A stretch of 32,689 bases of DNA from an uncultured Prevotellaceae bacterium (GTDB lineage Bacteria; Bacteroidota; Bacteroidia; Bacteroidales; Bacteroidaceae): the NCBI GenBank assembly GCA_946415645.1, contig CAMKTJ010000028.1, positions 1 to 32,689 on the forward strand, in the 5' to 3' direction. Shown piece after piece: positions 6,937 through 17,342 of the stretch; positions within the stretch are counted from its first letter, which is position 1, and every line of letters begins with the position of its first letter. Made by a program: the position numbers and the translations under genes. Below the pieces are notes generated by a model that was not told the DNA's origin, did not search any database, and was given only the letters and a program-made list of their open reading frames with translations.

Positions 6937-8118
6937 TTATTCTACGAATAGGACAAGTCCTTTTAGATATTCGCCCTCTGGATGATAGATGTTAATGGGA
7001 TGATCTGCAGGCTGATGAAGCTGATGCAGGATACGAACCTTACGCTTGGCCATAGCTGCTGCTGTGAATACCGCCATACGGAACTGATCCTTATTGACGG
7101 CCTGCGAACAACTGAAAGTAAAGAGGATACTTCCAGAAGGCATCTTCTCGAGTGCCTTGGCATTAAGCTTGGTATATCCGCGCAGAGCATTCTTCAATGC
7201 ATCCTTATGCTTAGCGAAAGCAGGAGGATCCAGAATTACAAGGTCATAGTTACCATCCATTTCGTCCAAGAAACGGAAAGCATCCTCAGCAAATGCCTCA
7301 TGGCGTTTATCTCCAGGGAAATTCAGCTCTATATTGGCATTTACCAAATCAACTGCTTTAGCACTACTATCTACAGAGTGAACAAGTTCTGCCCCACCCC
7401 TCATGGCATAGACGCTAAATCCACCTGTGTAACAGAACATATTCAGCACCTTGCGGCCATGAGCATATCTTTCAACAAGGGCACGATTCTCACGTTGATC
7501 AACAAAGAATCCTGTTTTCTGACCTTTCAGCCAGTCGATATGGAACTTCAGTCCATTCTCTATTGCTACATTATCATCGCTATCTCCTAAAATAAAACCA
7601 TTCTCCTGACCTAAAGAAGCCTTGAAAGGAAGCGTGGTCTCACTCTTGTAGTAAACGGCTTTCAGATCATCGCCCATAACAGCCTTCAAGGCCTGGGCAA
7701 TCTCCATCCTGCATACATGCATACCTACACTATGAGCCTGCATGACAGCGTTCTTGCCATAGATATCGATAATCAAACCTGGCAGATTGTCGCCCTCGCC
7801 ATGAACAAGACGATACATATTATTATATGATGTTCCGGCCACACCAATACTACGGCGCACATCAAGTGCCGAAGCCAGGCGCTTCTTCCAGAACTCGGCA
7901 TCTATCTCCTGACGCTTAAAGGTCAGGACTCTGACGGCTATACTGCCTATCTGCCAATGTCCCAGGGCGATAAACTTTCCTTCGCTATTTAGTACCTCTA
8001 CGATATCCCCTTCTGCCGGCTCACCCTCTATATGATGAACAGCCCCCGAGAATATCCAGGGGTGAAAACGTTTTAAACTTTCCTCTTTGCCTTTACGGAG
8101 TATTACCAATCTACTCAT
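6937..8118 (-). CDS. rlmI: 23S rRNA (cytosine1962-C5)-methyltransferase, RlmI family
   Basis: RlmI methylates C5 of C1962 in 23S rRNA. The 393-residue protein shows a PUA domain at residues 2-67 (start LVILRKGKEESLKRFHPWIFSGA), a central domain, and a Rossmann methyltransferase domain from about residue 190. Visible motifs are QKTGFFVDQRENR (200-212), the SAM motif LNMFCYTGGFSVYA (225-238), the LDPPAFAK motif (296-303) and FSCSQAV (335-341), whose cysteine C337 is the expected nucleophile. Length and order agree with E. coli RlmI. It is the first gene of the long leftward row that runs to the window edge; the space upstream has only a weak promoter candidate at about 8143-8150. Confidence 0.92.
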   Translation of the reverse strand: MSRLVILRKGKEESLKRFHPWIFSGAVHHIEGEPAEGDIVEVLNSEGKFIALGHWQIGSIAVRVLTFKRQEIDAEFWKKRLASALDVRRSIGVAGTSYNNMYRLVHGEGDNLPGLIIDIYGKNAVMQAHSVGMHVCRMEIAQALKAVMGDDLKAVYYKSETTLPFKASLGQENGFILGDSDDNVAIENGLKFHIDWLKGQKTGFFVDQRENRALVERYAHGRKVLNMFCYTGGFSVYAMRGGAELVHSVDSSAKAVDLVNANIELNFPGDKRHEAFAEDAFRFLDEMDGNYDLVILDPPAFAKHKDALKNALRGYTKLNAKALEKMPSGSILFTFSCSQAVNKDQFRMAVFTAAAMAKRKVRILHQLHQPADHPINIYHPEGEYLKGLVLFVE

Positions 8119-8253
8119 TTAATACATTTATTATTTACGCTGCGAAGTTACACAAAAATTTCGATAAACACACCTTATTATATAAATAAATTTGCATTGG
8201 TTACCATATTAATTCAAAATTCATAACTGAAGGAGCAAGGAGCAAACAAAAAA

Positions 8254-8275
8254 GCCCCTCTCCATTGGGAGAGGG
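8254..8275. repeat. Perfect 9-bp hairpin, REP-like element, possible terminator
   Basis: CCCCTCTCC (8254-8262) pairs with GGAGAGGGG (8267-8275) around a 4-base loop. Leftward, the stem is followed by CTTTTTT, so it could act as a rho-independent terminator on the minus strand. An outer pair, AAAAGCC on the left and GGCTTTT on the right (8284-8290), makes it nearly symmetric. The string GGGAGAGGGGTTGAGGTGAG is of the kind found repeated between genes in many bacterial genomes. Confidence 0.55.
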
Positions 8276-8292
8276 GTTGAGGTGAGGCTTTT

Positions 8293-8333
8293 GCTCCCTC
8301 GTGGGAGCGCATTTGTTTTCTCGTGGGAGCGCA
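8293..8333. repeat. Direct repeat of CTCGTGGGAGCGCA, two copies
   Basis: CTCGTGGGAGCGCA occurs at 8298-8311 and again at 8320-8333, a period of 22 bases. The first copy also makes a small hairpin, GCTCCC (8293-8298) with GGGAGC (8303-8308). The core CGTGGGA recurs in the tandem repeat at the right end of the window (32619-32662), so both may belong to one intergenic repeat family. Confidence 0.6.
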
Positions 8334-8620
8334 AATTTTCTCTTTATTATAGCCCAAATCGCAAACCAGATTGGCCATTTAGCCACATGAACCCTTCCAA
8401 ATGCGTTCTGAATACTGAAATTCCGAACCACTCATGTGCGCGCTAAGGATAGGGAAAAACATCGGAAAGAGGGGTTAGTGCATCTCTTTTGAGGCCTTAG
8501 AGAGCAGGATTTTTATACATTCTGTCCCTTTTCCAAGGTTTGGCATAGCGGGGGCTGCCGCTTTACTTATATCGTATCTTATTGATATTCTGCTTTTTAG
8601 ATGATTAATTGTTCGTTGTC

Positions 8621-8762
8621 CGTTCCAGTTCCAGTTGTTTCAGTTTATTTTTAGCCCCCCCCACATCCTCTATAATTATATATAACTATATATATATATT
8701 AATAAGTTATATAGTCTAAAGAAAGGAGTATGATACCTCTTTTTTTAATTGGAACTGGAACG
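8621..8762. repeat. 13-bp inverted repeat around a TA-rich core
   Basis: CGTTCCAGTTCCA (8621-8633) is the exact reverse complement of TGGAACTGGAACG (8750-8762). Between the arms lie a run of eight C (8653-8660) and about 40 bases of nearly pure A/T (8670-8713). The arms could be ends of a small non-coding insertion, a protein-binding site or a cruciform. No open frame fits between them. Confidence 0.6.
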
Positions 8763-8773
8763 CAACACGTGTT

Positions 8774-8806
8774 TCATTCTTCATTCTTCACTCTTCATTC
8801 TTCATT
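8774..8806. repeat. Short tandem repeat of ATTCTTC/ACTCTTC units
   Basis: Four to five units of the type (A/C)TTCTTCA follow one another. The run overlaps the end of the possible gene remnant on the minus strand. Such runs change length easily by slippage. Confidence 0.55.
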
Positions 8807-8936
8807 TTCTACAAGGCCATAAAGTGCCATGCAAATCTCGTTGTACATGCCCAGGGCATACTTCTCTACCGAGAAATTATCATCAATTCGCAAGTTCTCT
8901 TGCGATGCTTAGGGCAGAAACGTCGAGAACGATTTA
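8795..8936 (-). pseudogene. Possible C-terminal gene remnant, frameshifted
   Basis: On the minus strand one frame gives IVLDVSALSIARELAN followed by a stop (8936-8883). A second frame, overlapping it, gives a protein-like tail containing RIDDNFSVEKYALGMYNEIC and ends at 8795 inside the ATTCTTC repeat. Codon choice (GTA GAG AAG, CTG GGC) resembles real genes in this window, and the two pieces join if one frameshift is allowed. The tail recalls the C-terminal helix of glycosyltransferases, but no motif proves this. There is no start codon or upstream domain. Confidence is low; it may be chance. Confidence 0.25.
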
Positions 8937-8995
8937 TTAATTAGAGAACTTCATCTATAAAATACCCACGCCCAACAAAAAAAAATCGGATTTAT

Positions 8996-9026
8996 TTTGT
9001 ATTGTCCTCACTTAATCATATTTTTG
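8996..9026 (+). promoter_or_regulatory. Bacteroidota sigma-type promoter for the FtsK paralog
   Basis: TTTG (8996-8999), a 19-base spacer, then TATTTTTG (9019-9026) match the TTTG-N19-TAnnTTTG consensus exactly. The predicted RNA start is about 9033, leaving an untranslated leader of about 120 bases before the ATG at 9154. The spacer carries CTCACTTAATC, also found in the promoter of the leftward antitoxin gene at 12005-12035. Confidence 0.75.
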
Positions 9027-9054
9027 CAAATGATAGAGCAAGAAATGCGCCATT

Positions 9055-9108
9055 ATGGAGCAGAGAACCATAGAGGAGGTGTCCTTCAATCTTAATGTGT
9101 TAATATAG
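9055..9108 (+). CDS. Very short open frame in the leader of the FtsK paralog
   Basis: ATG at 9055 opens 17 codons, MEQRTIEEVSFNLNVLI, then TAG. It lies inside the predicted leader, 45 bases before the start of the FtsK paralog. It could be a leader peptide, the stub of a lost gene or chance. No ribosome binding site or family supports it. Confidence 0.2.
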   Translation: MEQRTIEEVSFNLNVLI

Positions 9109-9153
9109 CATTTGCTGTTATAAAAAATACATGAAAACTACAAATAAAAAGAC

Positions 9154-11376
9154 ATGGGATTAAGATATAGAAAAAGGGTTAAAATTCTCCCTGGTATTTA
9201 CATCAACATAAGCAAAAGCGGAATTAGTACAACTATTGGACCGCGTGGCGCAAGTGAAAATATTGGTAAAAGAGGAACATATATAAACGCAGGAATTCCA
9301 GGAACAGGATTATATGAGCGTCAAAGAATAGATAGCGGACGTAAATTTCAGAATCGGAGCAATGTTCAAATCAACAATTCGTCTGAAGCACCTGATTCAC
9401 AGGATTATGACCCAAGAATATTATCTGCAATATTGATTGGGGCAGGAATTGCTATCGCAATAATTCTTTTTGGCCTTTATGATAAGATTCCTCCTTTTCT
9501 GCTGATGGCTTTTGTTATCTTGCTTTTTGTATTGCTAAGGAAAAGGAAAAAGGATACTATAGTGGCACCAGAGATACCAAATAAAAGAAGTCAGGAAGAG
9601 TTGAAACCAAACAAAAGCCAAGTTGTTAATCAAAGCCATACCATACAAGAAGCAAACAATCAAGGAACAGTTAACAAACAAGAAATACTTTTAAAAACAA
9701 ATGAAGAAACTTTACCATTAGATTCTACAAATCTGACAAATAAACAGTATATTGTAGGCAAGGAGTCAGAATTTGTTAATCTAGACGATGAGATGAAGGT
9801 GGTTGATGAAAGTACCGAAAAATCAGGAATAGCCAATGAGAGTCCCCTTGAACCTTATGACCCAAAGTTGGATCTGGAGCGTTACAGATACCCCACCCTG
9901 GATTTGCTGAAGCACTATGACAACATACAATCGAATGTTGACATAGAGGAACAGCAGACCAACAAGAATAATATTATCAAGGTTCTGTCATACTTCGGCT
10001 TTGAGATCTCAAGTATCAAGGCTACCATCGGACCGGCCATTACCCTATACGAGATAACGCCCGCACCTGGTATATCATTAAATAGAATAAAATATTACGA
10101 AAAAGACATCGCATTGAATCTTAGCGCCCTAGATATTCGTATCATAGCGCCCATCCCCGGCAAGGGTACCATAGGTATAGAAGTTCCCAACGCTAAGCCG
10201 CAGATAGTTTCGATGGAAAGCGTCATCAACAGCCGCAAGTTCCAAGAGACAGATTTCGAGCTGCCAATTGCATTAGGGAAAACAATTACCGACGAAGTCT
10301 ATATGCTCGATTTAGCAAAAGCGCCACATATACTTATTGCAGGTTCTACGGGGCAAGGAAAGTCTGTCGCATTAAATGTTATTATTACATCTTTGTTATA
10401 TAAGAAACATCCTGCAGAGTTGAAATTCATTCTAATTGACCCAAGAATCATAGAATTTTCAGCATACAACCCGATACGATACCATTTTCTTGCAGAAATC
10501 GAAGAAAATTATTATAACAATGCTATTGTATCCGATGCGAGAACTGCGATTTCTACACTAAGAAGCCTATGTGTCGAATTAGATGTAAGGTATAGTCTTT
10601 TACAAAAAGCCCAAGCACGAAATATCAAAATATACAACACAAAGTTTAAGGACCGTTATTTAAACCCAACGATGGGACATAAGTTTATGCCTTACATTGT
10701 AACGGTTATTGATTCGTTTAGTGATATCACCATTGGATATGAGACTGAATTTAAAGAATCTCTCACAAAACTTGTTAAATTAGGTAGAGCTGTTGGAATA
10801 CATATAGTAATAGCTACAGGAAGGCCTTCGAGCGATATAATTGCTAGCGAGATTAAAACATATTTTCCCATTAGATTGTCTTTTAGACTTCCAGAAAAAA
10901 CAGATTCGAGGATAATTCTTGACGATATTGGAAGCGAGAGCCTTACAAGAGCTGGAGACATGTTAGTGTATGGAGGTGTCTTTCCCGTTCGTGTACAATG
11001 TGCGTTCGTCGATACACCAGAGGTGGAGGACATCACATCCTATATCGCCTGCCAGCAAAGCTACAACGCGCCGTTCCCGCTGCCTGAAGTTCCGATGGAA
11101 GGTGGTGAGGATGGAGACGGACCAGATGTTGACCTGAACCACCTTGACCCTATGTTCAACGAGGTGGCCCGTATGGTGGTATTGGAACAAAGCGGCAGTA
11201 CCAGTATGATTCAGTGCAAGTTCAGCATTGGATATAACAGAGCCGGACGACTGATGGACCAGTTGGAGAAGGTGGGTATCGTAGGTCCTGCCAAGGGCAG
11301 CAAGCCACGTGAGGTTCTTTGCTTCAGCGAAGAAGACCTGCAATTTAAGCTAGATAACCTTCTAGGCAATTCATAA
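9154..11376 (+). CDS. FtsK paralog: DUF4236 domain, two membrane helices, FtsK core with altered Walker B
   Basis: A 740-residue protein. Residues 1-58 are a DUF4236 domain (GLRYRKRVKILPGIYINISK, then GIPGTGL at 48-54). Two membrane helices follow (about 89-108 and 112-128) in place of FtsK's four, then a polar linker to residue 231. Residues 232-737 align in frame with residues 331-836 of the true FtsK at 14829-17342 with a single one-codon indel. Walker A is intact (GSTGQGKS, 397-404), but Walker B reads VIDSFSD (518-524) where FtsK has IIDEFGD, so the catalytic glutamate is serine. IATGRP replaces IATQRP. The gamma DNA-reading domain is nearly identical to FtsK (120 of 124 over the last conserved block), with one Arg to Cys change in SMIQCKF. 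A normally ATP-driven pump is unlikely; a regulator of FtsK or a DNA-bound membrane tether is possible (inference). The N-terminal and motor parts are AT-rich, the shared blocks are not. Confidence 0.9.
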   Translation: MGLRYRKRVKILPGIYINISKSGISTTIGPRGASENIGKRGTYINAGIPGTGLYERQRIDSGRKFQNRSNVQINNSSEAPDSQDYDPRILSAILIGAGIAIAIILFGLYDKIPPFLLMAFVILLFVLLRKRKKDTIVAPEIPNKRSQEELKPNKSQVVNQSHTIQEANNQGTVNKQEILLKTNEETLPLDSTNLTNKQYIVGKESEFVNLDDEMKVVDESTEKSGIANESPLEPYDPKLDLERYRYPTLDLLKHYDNIQSNVDIEEQQTNKNNIIKVLSYFGFEISSIKATIGPAITLYEITPAPGISLNRIKYYEKDIALNLSALDIRIIAPIPGKGTIGIEVPNAKPQIVSMESVINSRKFQETDFELPIALGKTITDEVYMLDLAKAPHILIAGSTGQGKSVALNVIITSLLYKKHPAELKFILIDPRIIEFSAYNPIRYHFLAEIEENYYNNAIVSDARTAISTLRSLCVELDVRYSLLQKAQARNIKIYNTKFKDRYLNPTMGHKFMPYIVTVIDSFSDITIGYETEFKESLTKLVKLGRAVGIHIVIATGRPSSDIIASEIKTYFPIRLSFRLPEKTDSRIILDDIGSESLTRAGDMLVYGGVFPVRVQCAFVDTPEVEDITSYIACQQSYNAPFPLPEVPMEGGEDGDGPDVDLNHLDPMFNEVARMVVLEQSGSTSMIQCKFSIGYNRAGRLMDQLEKVGIVGPAKGSKPREVLCFSEEDLQFKLDNLLGNS

Positions 11377-11437
11377 TTTATAGCCCCTAGTTTATCTGCC
11401 CCAAACCTCTGTCCTTTCCCCTATCCTGATGAGCACA

Positions 11438-11467
11438 CAAAAAAGCGGATAGTGTTACCTATCCGCT
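11438..11467 (-). terminator. Rho-independent terminator of the toxin-antitoxin operon
   Basis: AGCGGATAG (11444-11452) pairs perfectly with CTATCCGCT (11459-11467) around a 6-base loop. On the minus strand the stem is followed by six T (11439-11444 read as A on plus). It lies 27 bases after the toxin stop codon. It also separates the convergent FtsK paralog from the toxin gene. Confidence 0.85.
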
Positions 11468-11493
11468 ATATGCTTGAACTTTATTATTATGGG

Positions 11494-11766
11494 TTAGAAT
11501 AAATCGGAGCGTGTACCGGTTCCCGTGAACAAAAGGATCAGCTCTGTATCGTTTTGCTCCCATAGCATCAGCCAATCGGGCTTCAGGTGACACTCCCATG
11601 TGCCAACATATTGTCCCGACAACTTGTGAGGATGATAAGTGGCGGGGAGTTGACCATCAGCTTCGAGTAAGCGGATGGCAGTCTTAAGCAATTCCATGTC
11701 GTAACCACGCTTGCGACAACGTTCCGCATCCTTTCGGAACGTTTTGGTCATCCTAATTTCGTACAT
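11494..11766 (-). CDS. YafQ/RelE-family mRNA interferase toxin
   Basis: A 90-residue toxin of the RelE superfamily, YafQ branch. Such toxins cut mRNA in the ribosomal A site and are held inactive by the antitoxin encoded just upstream. Landmarks are FRKDAERCRKRGYDM (10-24), YHPHKLSG (44-51), CHLKPDWLMLW (59-69) and TGTGTRSDLF (81-90). Against the active site known for YafQ (His50, His63, Asp67, Trp68, His87, Phe91), H47, H60, D64, W65 and F90 are present, but the last histidine is R86. RelE itself relies on arginines, so the enzyme may still be active, but this is a real departure from YafQ. It starts 6 bases after the antitoxin stop. Confidence 0.88.
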   Translation of the reverse strand: MYEIRMTKTFRKDAERCRKRGYDMELLKTAIRLLEADGQLPATYHPHKLSGQYVGTWECHLKPDWLMLWEQNDTELILLFTGTGTRSDLF

Positions 11767-11772
11767 AAATGC

Positions 11773-11976
11773 TCAAATGCCTAACGACTTAAACATCTCC
11801 TCCGAAGAAGAGAACTTTTCTATGCGACCGGCTTTTTTGTCCTCCTGAGAACGCTGGTAGCTACTTTTTGTCTTAGGGGAGACCTTAGAAATCAAAACGC
11901 CTAAGGCTTGTAGGTATTTCATCAACGCCTTACCACTAGAGGTGCGTTCGTTTAATGTAATTGTATAAGTTGCCAT
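11773..11976 (-). CDS. Antitoxin of the YafQ/RelE-type pair
   Basis: A 67-residue protein directly upstream of the toxin on the same strand, with 6 bases between them. The N-terminal half (MATYTITLNERTSSGKALMK) has the beta-strand-then-helix form of small dimeric DNA-binding antitoxins, as in many Bacteroidota RelE-type pairs. The C-terminal half is polar and probably unfolded until it wraps the toxin, ending EEMFKSLGI. By analogy it should repress its own promoter, and the tandem promoter repeats at 12005-12165 lie immediately upstream. The exact antitoxin family is not certain from sequence alone. Confidence 0.8.
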   Translation of the reverse strand: MATYTITLNERTSSGKALMKYLQALGVLISKVSPKTKSSYQRSQEDKKAGRIEKFSSSEEMFKSLGI

Positions 11977-12004
11977 ATTTCTTATTCTTTTATATTTTCT
12001 GATG

Positions 12005-12035
12005 CAAAGTTACGATTAAGTGAGTGGAATACAAA
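12005..12035 (-). promoter_or_regulatory. Proximal promoter of the toxin-antitoxin operon
   Basis: Read leftward: TTTG (12032-12035), a 19-base spacer, TAACTTTG (12005-12012), an exact TTTG-N19-TAnnTTTG match. The predicted RNA start is about 11998, some 20 bases before the antitoxin ATG. It is the first of two near-identical promoters 87 bases apart. Confidence 0.8.
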
Positions 12036-12091
12036 AGAAAAATTTATTTTTCTTTTTATTCCCGGGCGAAAGTATCTTCGAAACGCAGGAT

Positions 12092-12122
12092 CAAAGTTAC
12101 GATTAAGTGAAAGAAAAGCAAA
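12092..12122 (-). promoter_or_regulatory. Distal promoter of the toxin-antitoxin operon
   Basis: Read leftward: TTTG (12119-12122), a 19-base spacer, TAACTTTG (12092-12099). It shares CACTTAATCGTAACTTTG (18 bases) with the proximal promoter. The two could give a double-start transcript, or one may be a relic of the duplication. Confidence 0.75.
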
Positions 12123-12174
12123 AGAAAAGCCTGTTTTTCTTTTCCGAACGAAAGCAGGTTAGGCAAAGCCAAAG

Positions 12175-13299
12175 TTACATGCTTAGCAGCCGTAATGCGG
12201 CAGCCTGAGCCATGGCATCGTAGGCACGCTCGCTGGGGTGCAGGTGATCGCCACTATCAAAGCCATCGGCAAAAGCCTTGGGATTGGTGGTGCTGCGCAC
12301 GGCGGCATCGAAATCAACACAACCATCGAAAATGGGAGAGGTGCGTAGCCACTCGTTAAAAGCGTGACGCATGGCTTCGCGCTTTTCGTTATAGGTACGC
12401 CAACCGTAGATGGGCAGTAAGGTGCCGCTCCATACCCTGAGACCCATAGCCTTGGCGGGTTTTACATAAATATCCTCTACCCCACGCTGCATTTCATCTA
12501 CCGTGGGCAGATCGCTCCAGGGACGGAAGGGGTTAACATCATCGCCCACGGGGTGGATAATATCGTTGATGCCATGCTGGATAATCACATCGGTAGCACC
12601 TGACACACGCATCTCGATGGGGAAACGGATGGCACCCTTCAAACCATAGGCCTGATAGGTAATGCAATCGTACTGGCGCAGAATGCGAGTACCACTAACG
12701 GCTCGACGGATGATGGAAACATTGGTGCCAAAGGCGAGCTGAGCCAGATAGTCGGGCCACGACTGGGCTGTAATCGAATCGCCATAGCACACTACGGCGC
12801 GGTTATCGGGCGATGTGAGCACATCGATGGTATTGAGAAAATAGAACCAGTTGGTTTGGCGCGTGAGATTGAGTGGTAACTCATCGGCCTCGGCAAAATC
12901 GCCATAGGCATAGAAACCCTTCGACAACGGACCTATAATGAGTGTACCGCTATTCATCTGGGTGCAATCGGCCATATACATGCTTACATTAATGGTATCA
13001 CCACGGTTCACAGCATAGCTGATGGCATCACTCTCAACCTCTTTACCAGGCTGCAGCGTAACGCTATTCTGACCACAAAATGTTATGGGGGTGTGCCCCA
13101 CAAAGGCCTTAGTCAAACTTACGGGCTCGGTGCCTGTAAGATTGGAGAAGCGGAAACGGAATGCGCTACCTGTAAACGGCATGCGGACAGGATAACGCAA
13201 GGTAAGATTCTTGGCATACACAGCCTCACGTCGGTCGGTAATAGAGGTGGCATTACCCCAACAAGCCACCCATTTTAAATCGGTATTATTCATTATCAT
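12175..13299 (-). CDS. SGNH/GDSL hydrolase, XynE-like subfamily
   Basis: A 374-residue esterase-type enzyme. Residues 1-165 form a beta-rich domain (SITDRREAVYAKNLTLRYPV, then FRFRFSN, then TFCGQNSVTLQPGKEVESD) like that of XynE-type acylhydrolases, first described in Prevotella. The SGNH domain follows: GDS at 173-175 with nucleophile S175, G203, GIND at 243-246, and the DxxH pair D351/H354 in SGDHLHPSERAYD. The family removes acyl groups from carbohydrates or other esters. No signal peptide is visible, so it is probably cytoplasmic, unlike many plant-fibre esterases, and may act on imported oligosaccharides (inference). A second ATG two codons later would serve as well. It stands alone: about 200 bases from the antitoxin and 59 bases after the exonuclease gene. 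Confidence 0.85.
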   Translation of the reverse strand: MIMNNTDLKWVACWGNATSITDRREAVYAKNLTLRYPVRMPFTGSAFRFRFSNLTGTEPVSLTKAFVGHTPITFCGQNSVTLQPGKEVESDAISYAVNRGDTINVSMYMADCTQMNSGTLIIGPLSKGFYAYGDFAEADELPLNLTRQTNWFYFLNTIDVLTSPDNRAVVCYGDSITAQSWPDYLAQLAFGTNVSIIRRAVSGTRILRQYDCITYQAYGLKGAIRFPIEMRVSGATDVIIQHGINDIIHPVGDDVNPFRPWSDLPTVDEMQRGVEDIYVKPAKAMGLRVWSGTLLPIYGWRTYNEKREAMRHAFNEWLRTSPIFDGCVDFDAAVRSTTNPKAFADGFDSGDHLHPSERAYDAMAQAAALRLLSM

Positions 13300-13358
13300 A
13301 AGGAGTTTAGCTATTTCTTCAAATTATATAGGTATTAGATATAACAACCTTTATAACC

Positions 13359-14828: not shown

Positions 14829-17342
14829 ATGGCCTCCAAGAAGAGCGATAAAAAATATAGAAATAACACAAAAGGCAAAAACGGCAATTTCTATTCGAAT
14901 GCCATGAGCTGGTTCAGAAAGAGCATTAAGAACGATTCGGATATCGATGCAGAGAAGAACACCGACCACAGCGACAACATCAAATTTGTATGGGGGTTTG
15001 TCCTTGCAAGCATATCCTTGTGTGTCTTCCTGGCTCTATTCTCTCACCTTTTTACAGGAGCTGAAGACCAAAAGCTAATCAACCACCCTGAACTGCCCGC
15101 CGCCAACTGGGTGGGCAAGATGGGATTCTGGATTGCCTACTGGCTGATGGACAATACATTTGGTATTGCTTCGATATTTATCCCCATCCTACTGGTAGCC
15201 ACGGGAATACGTATTATGGGAACCATAAAGGTGCGTCTGCACAAGTGGTTCCTGAACTGCATGATCCTGATGATATGGATTTCTGCCTTTATGGCTTTCC
15301 TGCAACTGCACTTCGAGACGTTGCAGAACGGATACATCAACTGGGGCGGCATGATTGGAGAGAGAGAGATATCCAGGCTCATAGAAAAAGTCGGTAACTT
15401 CGGTGCCATTGTAACCCTGTTAATTATGGCCTTGCTGTACACCTTCTACCTGAGCGGCGAAGCAATAACGGCCATCAGGAATGTTGTGAACAGAAACGAA
15501 AAGAATAAACTGGCTACCTTAGCAGGTGAAGAGAAAGAATTGGAAGACGGCGATGAGGAAGACATGCTTGACGAAGAGGAAGAAACGCTCTCAACAAGCG
15601 AGGAGGTAGAAATGAAGTTGGAAAACACCATCCCCTTCGAGGACGAGCCCTCAAAGACTGCCACAACCATAGACTTCGGTAACACCAGTGGTGAAATGGA
15701 GATTCCCTTAAAGGTTGGAGAACAGGCACTACCCCTGGAATTTGCCAACCCTGCCGATGATATGAAGGTTGTTGTGGGAGAAGACCCCGAAAAGGCCGAC
15801 ACCACCAAGGAAGGTGCTCTTGAGCCATACGACCCGAAGTTGGATCTGGAGCATTACAAATACCCCACCCTTGACTTGCTGAAGCACTATGACAACATCC
15901 AGTCAAATGTGGATATGGAGGAGCAGCAGGCAAACAAGAATAAGATCATCAAGGTTCTCTCATACTTCGGCGTTGAGATTTCAAGTATCAAGGCCACCAT
16001 TGGTCCTACTATTACTCTGTACGAAATAACGCCTGCACCAGGCATCCGTATCAGCAGAATTCGAGGCTTGGAAGACGATATCGCCCTAAGCCTTAGCGCC
16101 CTGGGAATTCGTATCATTGCTCCCATCCCCGGTAAGGGAACCATTGGTATAGAGGTACCTAACGCCAAGCCACAGATGGTATCCATGGAGAGCGTCATCA
16201 ACAGCCGCAAATTTCAGGAAACTGACTACGAATTGCCAATGGCACTCGGAAAGACCATTACCAACGAGGTCTTTATGGTCGACTTGGCTAAGATGCCCCA
16301 CCTGTTGGTTGCAGGTGCAACGGGTCAGGGTAAATCTGTTGGTTTGAACGCTATTATTACATCTTTGCTCTATAAGAAGCACCCTGCTGAGCTGAAGTTT
16401 GTAATGGTTGACCCCAAGAAGGTGGAGTTCAGCGTTTATAACCCTATAGTCAACCACTTCCTGGCACAGGTTGAAGGCAACGAAGGTACTGAAGAGCCTA
16501 TCATCACTGATGTAAACAAGGTAATTCAGACACTAAAGAGCCTTTGTGTGGAAATGGATACTCGCTATGACCTATTGAAAAAGGCCCGAGCCAGAAACGT
16601 AAAGGAATATAACCAGAAATTCAAGGACCGTCAACTGAACCCGGAGAACGGACATAAGTTCATGCCTTACATTGTGGTTATTATCGATGAGTTCGGCGAT
16701 CTGATTATGACGGCAGGCAAGGAAATCGAGTTACCAATAGCACGTATCGCCCAGTTGGCTCGTGCCGTAGGTATTCACATGATAATTGCCACACAGCGCC
16801 CGACCACAAACATCATTACAGGTACTATCAAGGCTAACTTCCCAGCCCGATTGGCATTCAAGGTAGCCAGCTCTATCGATAGTAAGACCATCCTTGACCG
16901 AACTGGAGCCAACCAATTGATAGGAAAAGGTGATATGCTGTTCCTCTCTGGCAACGACCCCGTTCGTGTGCAGTGTGCTTTCGTCGATACGCCCGAGGTG
17001 GAGGATATCACATCATATATTGCATGTCAGCAAAGTTACAATGCACCGTTCCCGCTGCCTGAAGTTCCAATGGAGGGCTGTGAGGATGGAGACGGACCGG
17101 ATGTTGACCTGAATCATCTTGACCCCATGTTCAATGAAGTGGCTCGTATGGTTGTTCTTGAACAAAGTGGCAGTACCAGCATGATCCAGCGTAAATTCAG
17201 CATCGGATATAACAGAGCCGGACGTTTAATGGACCAGTTGGAAAAAGTCGGCATTGTAGGCCCTGCAAAGGGTAGCAAGCCACGCGAGGTTCTCTGCGTC
17301 AGCGAAGAAGACCTGCAGTTCAGATTGGATAACATAGGATAA
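14829..17342 (+). CDS. ftsK: DNA translocase FtsK
   Basis: The septal DNA pump, which moves chromosome ends across the closing septum and activates XerCD recombination at dif. The 837-residue protein has four N-terminal membrane helices (about 52-76, 98-127, 139-160, 189-210), an acidic linker (about 230-330), and the alpha/beta motor from residue 331 (LEPYDPKLDLEHYKYPTLDL). Walker A is GATGQGKS (496-503) and Walker B is IIDEFGD with D620/E621; IATQRP follows. The gamma winged-helix domain with MIQRKFSIGYNRAGRLMDQL reads the polar KOPS sites in DNA. Length and motifs are all normal, so this copy is functional. It begins the rightward operon with lolA 19 bases behind, the order seen in many bacteria. 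Its core is the source or partner of the mosaic copy at 9154-11376. Confidence 0.96.
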   Translation: MASKKSDKKYRNNTKGKNGNFYSNAMSWFRKSIKNDSDIDAEKNTDHSDNIKFVWGFVLASISLCVFLALFSHLFTGAEDQKLINHPELPAANWVGKMGFWIAYWLMDNTFGIASIFIPILLVATGIRIMGTIKVRLHKWFLNCMILMIWISAFMAFLQLHFETLQNGYINWGGMIGEREISRLIEKVGNFGAIVTLLIMALLYTFYLSGEAITAIRNVVNRNEKNKLATLAGEEKELEDGDEEDMLDEEEETLSTSEEVEMKLENTIPFEDEPSKTATTIDFGNTSGEMEIPLKVGEQALPLEFANPADDMKVVVGEDPEKADTTKEGALEPYDPKLDLEHYKYPTLDLLKHYDNIQSNVDMEEQQANKNKIIKVLSYFGVEISSIKATIGPTITLYEITPAPGIRISRIRGLEDDIALSLSALGIRIIAPIPGKGTIGIEVPNAKPQMVSMESVINSRKFQETDYELPMALGKTITNEVFMVDLAKMPHLLVAGATGQGKSVGLNAIITSLLYKKHPAELKFVMVDPKKVEFSVYNPIVNHFLAQVEGNEGTEEPIITDVNKVIQTLKSLCVEMDTRYDLLKKARARNVKEYNQKFKDRQLNPENGHKFMPYIVVIIDEFGDLIMTAGKEIELPIARIAQLARAVGIHMIIATQRPTTNIITGTIKANFPARLAFKVASSIDSKTILDRTGANQLIGKGDMLFLSGNDPVRVQCAFVDTPEVEDITSYIACQQSYNAPFPLPEVPMEGCEDGDGPDVDLNHLDPMFNEVARMVVLEQSGSTSMIQRKFSIGYNRAGRLMDQLEKVGIVGPAKGSKPREVLCVSEEDLQFRLDNIG

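Follow-up and report, generated by a model that had tools for sequence, protein, structure and literature searches.

The window analysed here is the whole of a 32,689-nt contig (CAMKTJ010000028.1) of a 2.89-Mb draft genome, and one intact open reading frame (ORF) in it encodes a 740-residue paralog of FtsK that begins with a DUF4236 domain. In this window protein both the catalytic glutamate and the phosphosensor glutamine of FtsK are replaced, and parts of its gene look copied from the ftsK of its own genome. The explanation that we favour, tentatively and with a little less than even confidence, is that it is a hydrolysis-deficient FtsK paralog, which would bind ATP, grip DNA and restrain the host FtsK, either as a subunit of shared rings or at sites beside it. 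According to Pfam it is the only DUF4236 match in the genome and one of two above-cut-off FtsK matches, both of which lie in the window; the other is the housekeeping protein, here called the local FtsK, and a third, weak match below the cut-off lies elsewhere in the genome. The window protein and the local FtsK are identical at 404 of 576 aligned positions (70%). Within the window protein, Pfam places FtsK_alpha at residues 247-346, FtsK_SpoIIIE at 356-559 and FtsK_gamma (PF09397) at 664-722.

An earlier note, made from the DNA letters, had described an intact Walker A motif (GSTGQGKS), an altered Walker B motif (VIDSFSD) and a sequence IATGRP, and all three are borne out by the ORF, by Pfam and by alignment to the local FtsK, which reads IIDEFGD and IATQRP at the places of the last two (the second being residues 553-558). 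The note was also right that the activating glutamate is lost: in an alignment to P. aeruginosa FtsK, S521 (codon TCG) stands opposite the catalytic Glu596 and G556 (codon GGA) opposite the phosphosensor Gln631, these roles being described in passages of PMC9410874. In an alignment with 24 FtsK rows (aligned sequences), the Walker A lysine K403, the Walker B aspartate D520 and the sensor threonine T555 are kept. The arginine finger and DNA-gripping loop residues are present (R545, R557, K568, K582 and R586); K582 and R586 are the basic residues of loop I, their counterparts in the local FtsK being S and K. The FtsK motor fold is complete in the predicted model. Since the Glu and Gln are lost, while the Walker A Lys, Walker B Asp, arginine finger and DNA-gripping residues are kept, the natural prediction is that the window protein binds ATP without normal hydrolysis. 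The replacements are not a chance occurrence, because S521 and G556, along with D520, F522, D524, R545 and R557, show no variation across the window protein and 15 further clusters, which are 54-80% identical to it and were found by similarity across a 96-residue stretch.

Protein similarity searches place the window protein in a family of DUF4236-FtsK paralogs. There are 573 proteins with a DUF4236 start at 0.55-1.75 times its length, and the best 120 of the 573 include dozens with FtsK domains; this rules out a design confined to the window protein, the earlier note having known of no described protein of the kind. For comparison, paralog rows were chosen by a text pattern (a DUF4236-like start and Walker A) from the listed matches and the genome copies, proteins missed by the pattern being uncounted. 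Removal of P0130 (the same as the paralog of G405) and P0142 (which has no core) reduced 61 rows to 59, some of them near-identical. The Glu-Gln pair, present in 24/24 FtsK rows, is found in 0/59 paralog rows. The residues at positions 596 and 631 are Glu and Lys (E/K) in 30 rows, S/G in 18, S/K in three and A/N in three, with A/T, S/S, D/K, E/R and D/Q in one row each. The note had proposed a check of whether Walker B is altered throughout such proteins; it is not, as Glu is gone in 28 rows and kept in 31. The lysine of the DPK motif is found in 1/59 paralog rows versus 24/24 FtsK rows, and is Arg in the window protein; Asp599 is present in all 18 S/G rows and variable in other paralog branches. 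Because Ser and Gly at positions 596 and 631 are what defines the S/G group, its 18/18 agreement is no test, and the independent test is the comparison with the 15 clusters.

In a tree of the core, 23 paralogs and 14 FtsKs fall on opposite sides (support 100/100), and the eight S/G rows fall together (100/99). Without the trait columns, the 14 Glu-less rows used are still split from the others by a single branch (73/98), and Glu changes once on the tree. The simplest reading, although not a proven one, is a single loss of Glu; independent losses are disfavoured by this one-branch grouping, with a support that is not strong. The 37-row trees (gamma, core and trait-free) are a hand-picked subset of 85 rows, and both they and the counts of changes exclude the outlying Asp rows P0143 and P0222. 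Where the databases give a name, members are called DUF4236 domain-containing protein (P0078, P0093) or DNA segregation ATPase FtsK/SpoIIIE (P0136). A comparison of the DUF4236 fold with the PDB gave no match at E 0.001 or better, a result of little weight given the medium confidence of the query model. DUF4236 proteins of other kinds were also seen: the set P0167-P0232 includes many of 640-658 residues, with the last 75 residues almost identical and no other Pfam domain listed, and in P0137, P0141 and P0212 an FtsK gamma domain stands in mid-chain, gamma thus being used outside FtsK.

The gene looks like a mosaic, in which the DUF4236/membrane part and the core are AT-rich and family-specific, and the alpha and linker-gamma parts seem to be copied from the host ftsK. 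The fraction of codons ending in G or C (GC3) is 0.26 over residues 1-234, 0.56 over 235-365, 0.27 over 385-604 and 0.58 over 608-733, compared with 0.52-0.60 throughout ftsK; the high-GC3 parts have 146/257 such codons and the low-GC3 parts 119/454 (Fisher p 1e-15). The alternation is repeated in the paralogs of other genomes (.27/.39/.27/.44 in G060,.31/.42/.31/.43 in G332 and.27/.44/.31/.52 in G185), though only weakly in G405 (.33/.49/.45/.49). By sliding identity to nine reference rows, the genome's own FtsK is closest at residues 225-384 and again from about 585 onwards to the C-terminus, and S/G paralogs are closest at 385-464 and 505-604, with own FtsK slightly ahead at 465-504 (0.70 vs 0.68).

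The same pattern is found when paralogs are paired with the FtsKs of their genomes. Over five genomes, the own FtsK ranks strictly first in closeness among 11 in 5/5 cases for residues 235-300, for the linker and for gamma, as against 2/5 for 301-365, 1/5 for 366-384, 2/5 for 385-504 and 1/5 for 505-604. For the core the permutation count is also low (1 to 2 of 120), a weak own-genome signal with an excess of 0.03 or less. The test omits G019, a near relative of G185 with a damaged gamma, whose inclusion would give 5/6 for alpha and for gamma; in G019 the linker alone is closest to its own FtsK. Trees agree with this picture. Forcing the eight S/G gammas together is rejected by the approximately unbiased (AU) test (log-likelihood 78 lower, p-AU 0.0004), this test having followed a quick gamma tree and the S/G group having come from core residues. 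In the core, conversely, the test rejects a forced grouping of the window protein and P0001 with the window's FtsK (p-AU 3e-42). The gamma of the window protein is placed with its own FtsK (89/95), and that of the G332 group with the FtsK of G332 (100/98), G332 and P0093 being separated by zero branch length in the quick tree. The gamma of P0129 is not grouped with the FtsK of G405, unlike that of its relative P0130.

The earlier note had described the DNA-reading domain as intact, with 120 of 124 residues as in the local FtsK. The near-identity stands, with a count of 119/124 over residues 613-736 or 120/125 over 612-736, and the domain is nearly but not fully intact: C688 replaces an Arg that is kept in 24/24 FtsK rows. 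Parts of PMC9764985 identify Ser766, Gln769 and Asn777 as the residues that recognise FtsK-orienting polar sequences (KOPS), and parts of PMC6466248 identify Arg770, Lys771, Arg778 and Arg781 as backbone contacts. The window protein keeps the equivalents S684, Q687 and N695 of the first set, and K689, R696 and R699 of the second. Cys at the Arg770 position is found in the window copy alone among the 59 paralog rows, where there are also one His, one Asp and three rows without a letter. Since the base-reading residues are retained and the Arg770 contact is lost, KOPS-type DNA reading is likely to be kept, and is possibly weaker.

The copying appears not to be recent, and the protein sequence to have been held since. 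This is inferred because, between the linker-gamma parts of the window gene and its own ftsK, nonsynonymous divergence (dN) is 0.031 and synonymous divergence (dS) about 1.44, the latter being rough because of saturation (many other dS values were not computable), and because 28/51 fourfold sites are identical between paralog and ftsK, compared with 17/46 between the FtsKs of the window genome and G060. A different kind of evidence comes from G185 and G019, in which the paralog is flanked by ftsK and lolA. The two share a block, 96-100% identical per 100 bases, that begins at the ftsK 3' end and reaches into the paralog as far as about codon 580, whereas ftsK upstream is 57-93% identical and the stretch after the block 71-86%; this points to transfer between the two lines in which ftsK/gamma DNA acted as the homology arm. 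In G019 (L098, 10158-12587, minus strand) the housekeeping ftsK is frameshifted within gamma and about 75 nt are missing from the gamma of the adjacent paralog; as both of these similar gammas are damaged, the contig may be misassembled between them.

The class is rare. Using an 81-residue core piece at E 1e-28 or better, and with genomes that are partly incomplete, it is found in 4/139 genus genomes (a count that takes in the window's own genome and one with DAYNV), in 2/13 of genus g19 and in 4/301 from the family. DUF4236 of any kind is found in 17/399 family genomes and 12/393 order genomes. A phage or plasmid home was considered and rejected, as the match covers 80% of the protein in 0/3313 matching plasmid records and 0/311 matching phage records; nine viral loci matched, at most 50% identical across the 81-residue piece.

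How such a protein might restrain FtsK can be proposed in outline. In the simulation reported in PMC9410874, as far as its passages on the switch go, Glu596 turns to Thr630-Gln631 when ATP is gone and Arg632 leaves the DNA. With Ser and Gly at these positions the release step would be missing, and an ATP-bound paralog subunit would stay clamped on DNA; the paralog's arginine finger, which is kept, could still work on ATP bound by an adjacent FtsK subunit. The effect would be dose-dependent, from mild slowing to arrest, because SpoIIIE rings, according to part of PMC4728128, tolerate separated inactive subunits and not two adjacent ones. The case for an action on FtsK is strengthened by the finding that residues 235-300, linker and gamma best match own-genome FtsK in all five pairs, since the host-matching ends are those that would set the ring partner and the loading site. 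A more elaborate version, which we regard as rather doubtful, is a horizontally moving brake gene: an AT-rich dead-core cassette that, on reaching a new host, replaces its alpha and DNA-reading ends by copies of the resident FtsK's, and so fits and restrains the host's rings and loading sites.

Several observations weigh against the restraining subunit. The 4TM domain (PF13491) is found by Pfam only in the local FtsK, the window protein starting with DUF4236 instead. The beta core carries the inter-subunit ATP site of FtsK, and its identity to own FtsK of 0.47 at residues 505-604 is somewhat against free co-assembly. A dead motor is not family-wide, the 31 Glu-keeping rows having Lys or Arg for Gln, and in the window copy C688 removes one backbone contact. 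The gene is rare in its genus, so its role is dispensable. Support for some of the gamma branches is modest (89/95 in the window, 83/83 in G405, 63/77 or less in G060), and in G019 the alpha and gamma parts are closer to the FtsK of G185 than to its own (0.92 vs 0.80 and 0.89 vs 0.86). Lastly, in genus g19 the ftsK/gamma DNA is seemingly a recombination arm, which could explain matching ends without selection.

This last point is the basis of the strongest rival, a mobile cassette in which a DUF4236-core unit recombines at ftsK-like DNA and the ends match the host merely as recombination partner. We consider this unlikely, although it is a serious contender. The shared block of G185 and G019 is the best argument for reading the match as a by-product, and the cassette also accounts for the affinity of the G019 ends with G185, the patchy presence (4/139, 2/13), the differing locations and the extra 5.2-kb stretch in the window. 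Yet in G060 a distance of 127 kb separates the paralog from ftsK, and in G332 and G405 the two lie on different contigs, and the ends of these paralogs still match best; the own-genome excess of core 385-604 is no more than 0.03 in five genomes though it is flanked by matching parts; and the copied segment has a dN that is low against dS.

It is less probable still that the protein is a stand-alone DNA clamp or a very slow motor, assembling into rings of its own where FtsK loads and acting outside FtsK rings. The complete motor fold and the loop I residues K582 and R586 would suit this, and the divergent core could favour self-assembly, but the tracking of the host by the N-terminal half of alpha would be left unexplained. 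An accessory conflict gene, which blocks the DNA pumps of incoming plasmids, phages or conjugative elements or traps their DNA, is a poor candidate: the patchy distribution and the neighbouring genes (a YafQ pair in the window, a YoeB-like toxin in G405, a PDC-S01 candidate in G332) are compatible with it, whereas gamma matches the reader of the host's own chromosome, and the PADLOC models that the window protein matches (SspH, mad8 and HerA) include two, SspH and mad8, for which housekeeping FtsK is the better match. Finally, a decaying pseudogene or an assembly artefact is most improbable, and sequencing error is ruled out with it, since despite the draft-genome contig, the odd C688 and the damaged gamma of the distant G019 copy, S521 and G556 are invariant in 16 sequences, and the reading frame is uninterrupted in the six genome copies (653-740 residues), as it is in protein clusters of other origin.

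The features of the window are collected in Table 1. The two hydrophobic helices are likely to be a two-pass membrane hairpin. The exonuclease gene and a methyltransferase gene, which we take to be rlmI-like, are adjacent in G060 and G405 (L093, L100), and the other fetched loci are without that junction. The kilobase before the paralog (8119-9153) has no ORF of more than 76 residues and is AT-rich over most of its length, with GC of 0.36-0.39 from 8000 to 9199; no Rfam family reached its gathering score anywhere in the window, this stretch included. Promoter-like sites, matched to the Bacteroidetes-type consensus, number 5 in the window compared with 1.07 expected, and 1/100 shuffles reach 5. 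Two 52-nt copies (12005-12056 and 12092-12143), 83% identical and having promoter-like sites, lie before the toxin-antitoxin pair, and a similar site, inverted, precedes the paralog. Elsewhere, a YoeB-like toxin gene (L099, 1155-1427) lies ahead of the G405 paralog, the window copy adjoining a YafQ-type toxin, and a PADLOC PDC-S01 candidate defence protein (L095, 4635-5933; E 3e-94) is encoded some 2 kb away from the paralog of G332.

Table 1. Positions of the paralog, its parts and its neighbours in the window.
Feature	Position	Strand	Remarks
DUF4236-FtsK paralog, 740 aa	9154..11376	+	ORF and Pfam
DUF4236 (PF14020), residues 3-56	9160..9321	+	Pfam; six short beta strands predicted
Two hydrophobic helices, residues 87-108 and 114-133, then RKRKKD	9412..9552	+	AlphaFold2 helices
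Alpha domain, residues 235-365	9856..10248	+	Resembles the genome's own ftsK; GC3 0.56
Beta ATPase core, residues 385-604	10306..10965	+	Family-specific, AT-rich; GC3 0.27
Walker A GSTGQGKS, residues 397-404, kept	10342..10365	+	
Walker B VIDSFSD, residues 518-524; S521 replaces catalytic Glu	10705..10725	+	
R545, equivalent of arginine finger Arg620, kept	10786..10788	+	
Phosphosensor T555-G556, lacking Gln631, and R557, the retained DNA-gripping Arg632	10816..10824	+	
Linker and gamma, residues 608-740	10975..11373	+	Resembles the genome's own ftsK; GC3 0.56-0.58
FtsK gamma winged helix, residues 664-722	11143..11319	+	58/59 residues as in local FtsK
C688 (TGC), replacing a DNA-backbone-contacting Arg (Arg770)	11215..11217	+	
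Housekeeping FtsK, 837 aa, with 4TM domain	14829..17342	+	Likely donor of alpha and gamma segments
About 5.2 kb extra between exonuclease and rlmI-like genes	8119..13358	.	Paralog, YafQ-type pair, GDSL gene
YafQ toxin (11494-11766) and 67-aa likely antitoxin (11773-11976)	11494..11976	-	Toxin by Pfam; antitoxin by position only, no Pfam match
Promoter-like TTTG-N19-TATTTTTG	8996..9026	+	127 bp before ATG; Bacteroidetes-type

A search of the literature on FtsK paralogs, inactive FtsK, mixed subunits, KOPS and gamma, and FtsK gene conversion, covering mostly titles and the openings of abstracts, found no description of a DUF4236-FtsK protein; DUF4236 is mentioned in passing in part of PMC8049487, and FtsK and SpoIIIE are described as homo-hexamers in part of PMC4728128. 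If the restraining role is true, FtsK doubles with a dismantled release switch and host-copied interface and DNA-reading ends would amount to a built-in regulator of chromosome pumping. The family would also offer a natural set of mutants for testing the Glu596-Gln631 switch, which has been argued from simulation (PMC9410874). Should mobility alone be behind the copying, the case is still an example of a gene that spreads via ftsK homology.

The closest known system is FtsK itself (of Bacteroidaceae, and of P. aeruginosa in 2IUT and 6T8B), with which the window protein has in common the alpha/beta/gamma organisation, Walker A, the Walker B Asp, the arginine finger, the basic residues of loops I and II and the base-reading residues of gamma. 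It differs in having DUF4236 and two helices in place of 4TM, in the changes of Glu596 to Ser, Gln631 to Gly and the DPK Lys to Arg, and in C688. The Glu-keeping paralogs (for example P0102, P0136 and P0224) have the same architecture and have also lost Gln631, but differ in that Glu596 is kept and Gln631 is replaced by Lys (30 rows) or Arg (one row). P0137 and P0141 likewise have a DUF4236 start and an FtsK gamma; unlike in the window protein, gamma is at about residues 162-222 and is followed by an AAA and AAA_lid_6 ATPase that is not FtsK-type, so that DUF4236 plus gamma recurs with another engine. EccC and EssC of type VII secretion are unlike it again, having tandem ATPases in one chain and functioning in protein secretion. 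Set beside these systems, the window protein is a variant of FtsK with an unusual evolutionary pattern, and the mosaic structure is what is new here.
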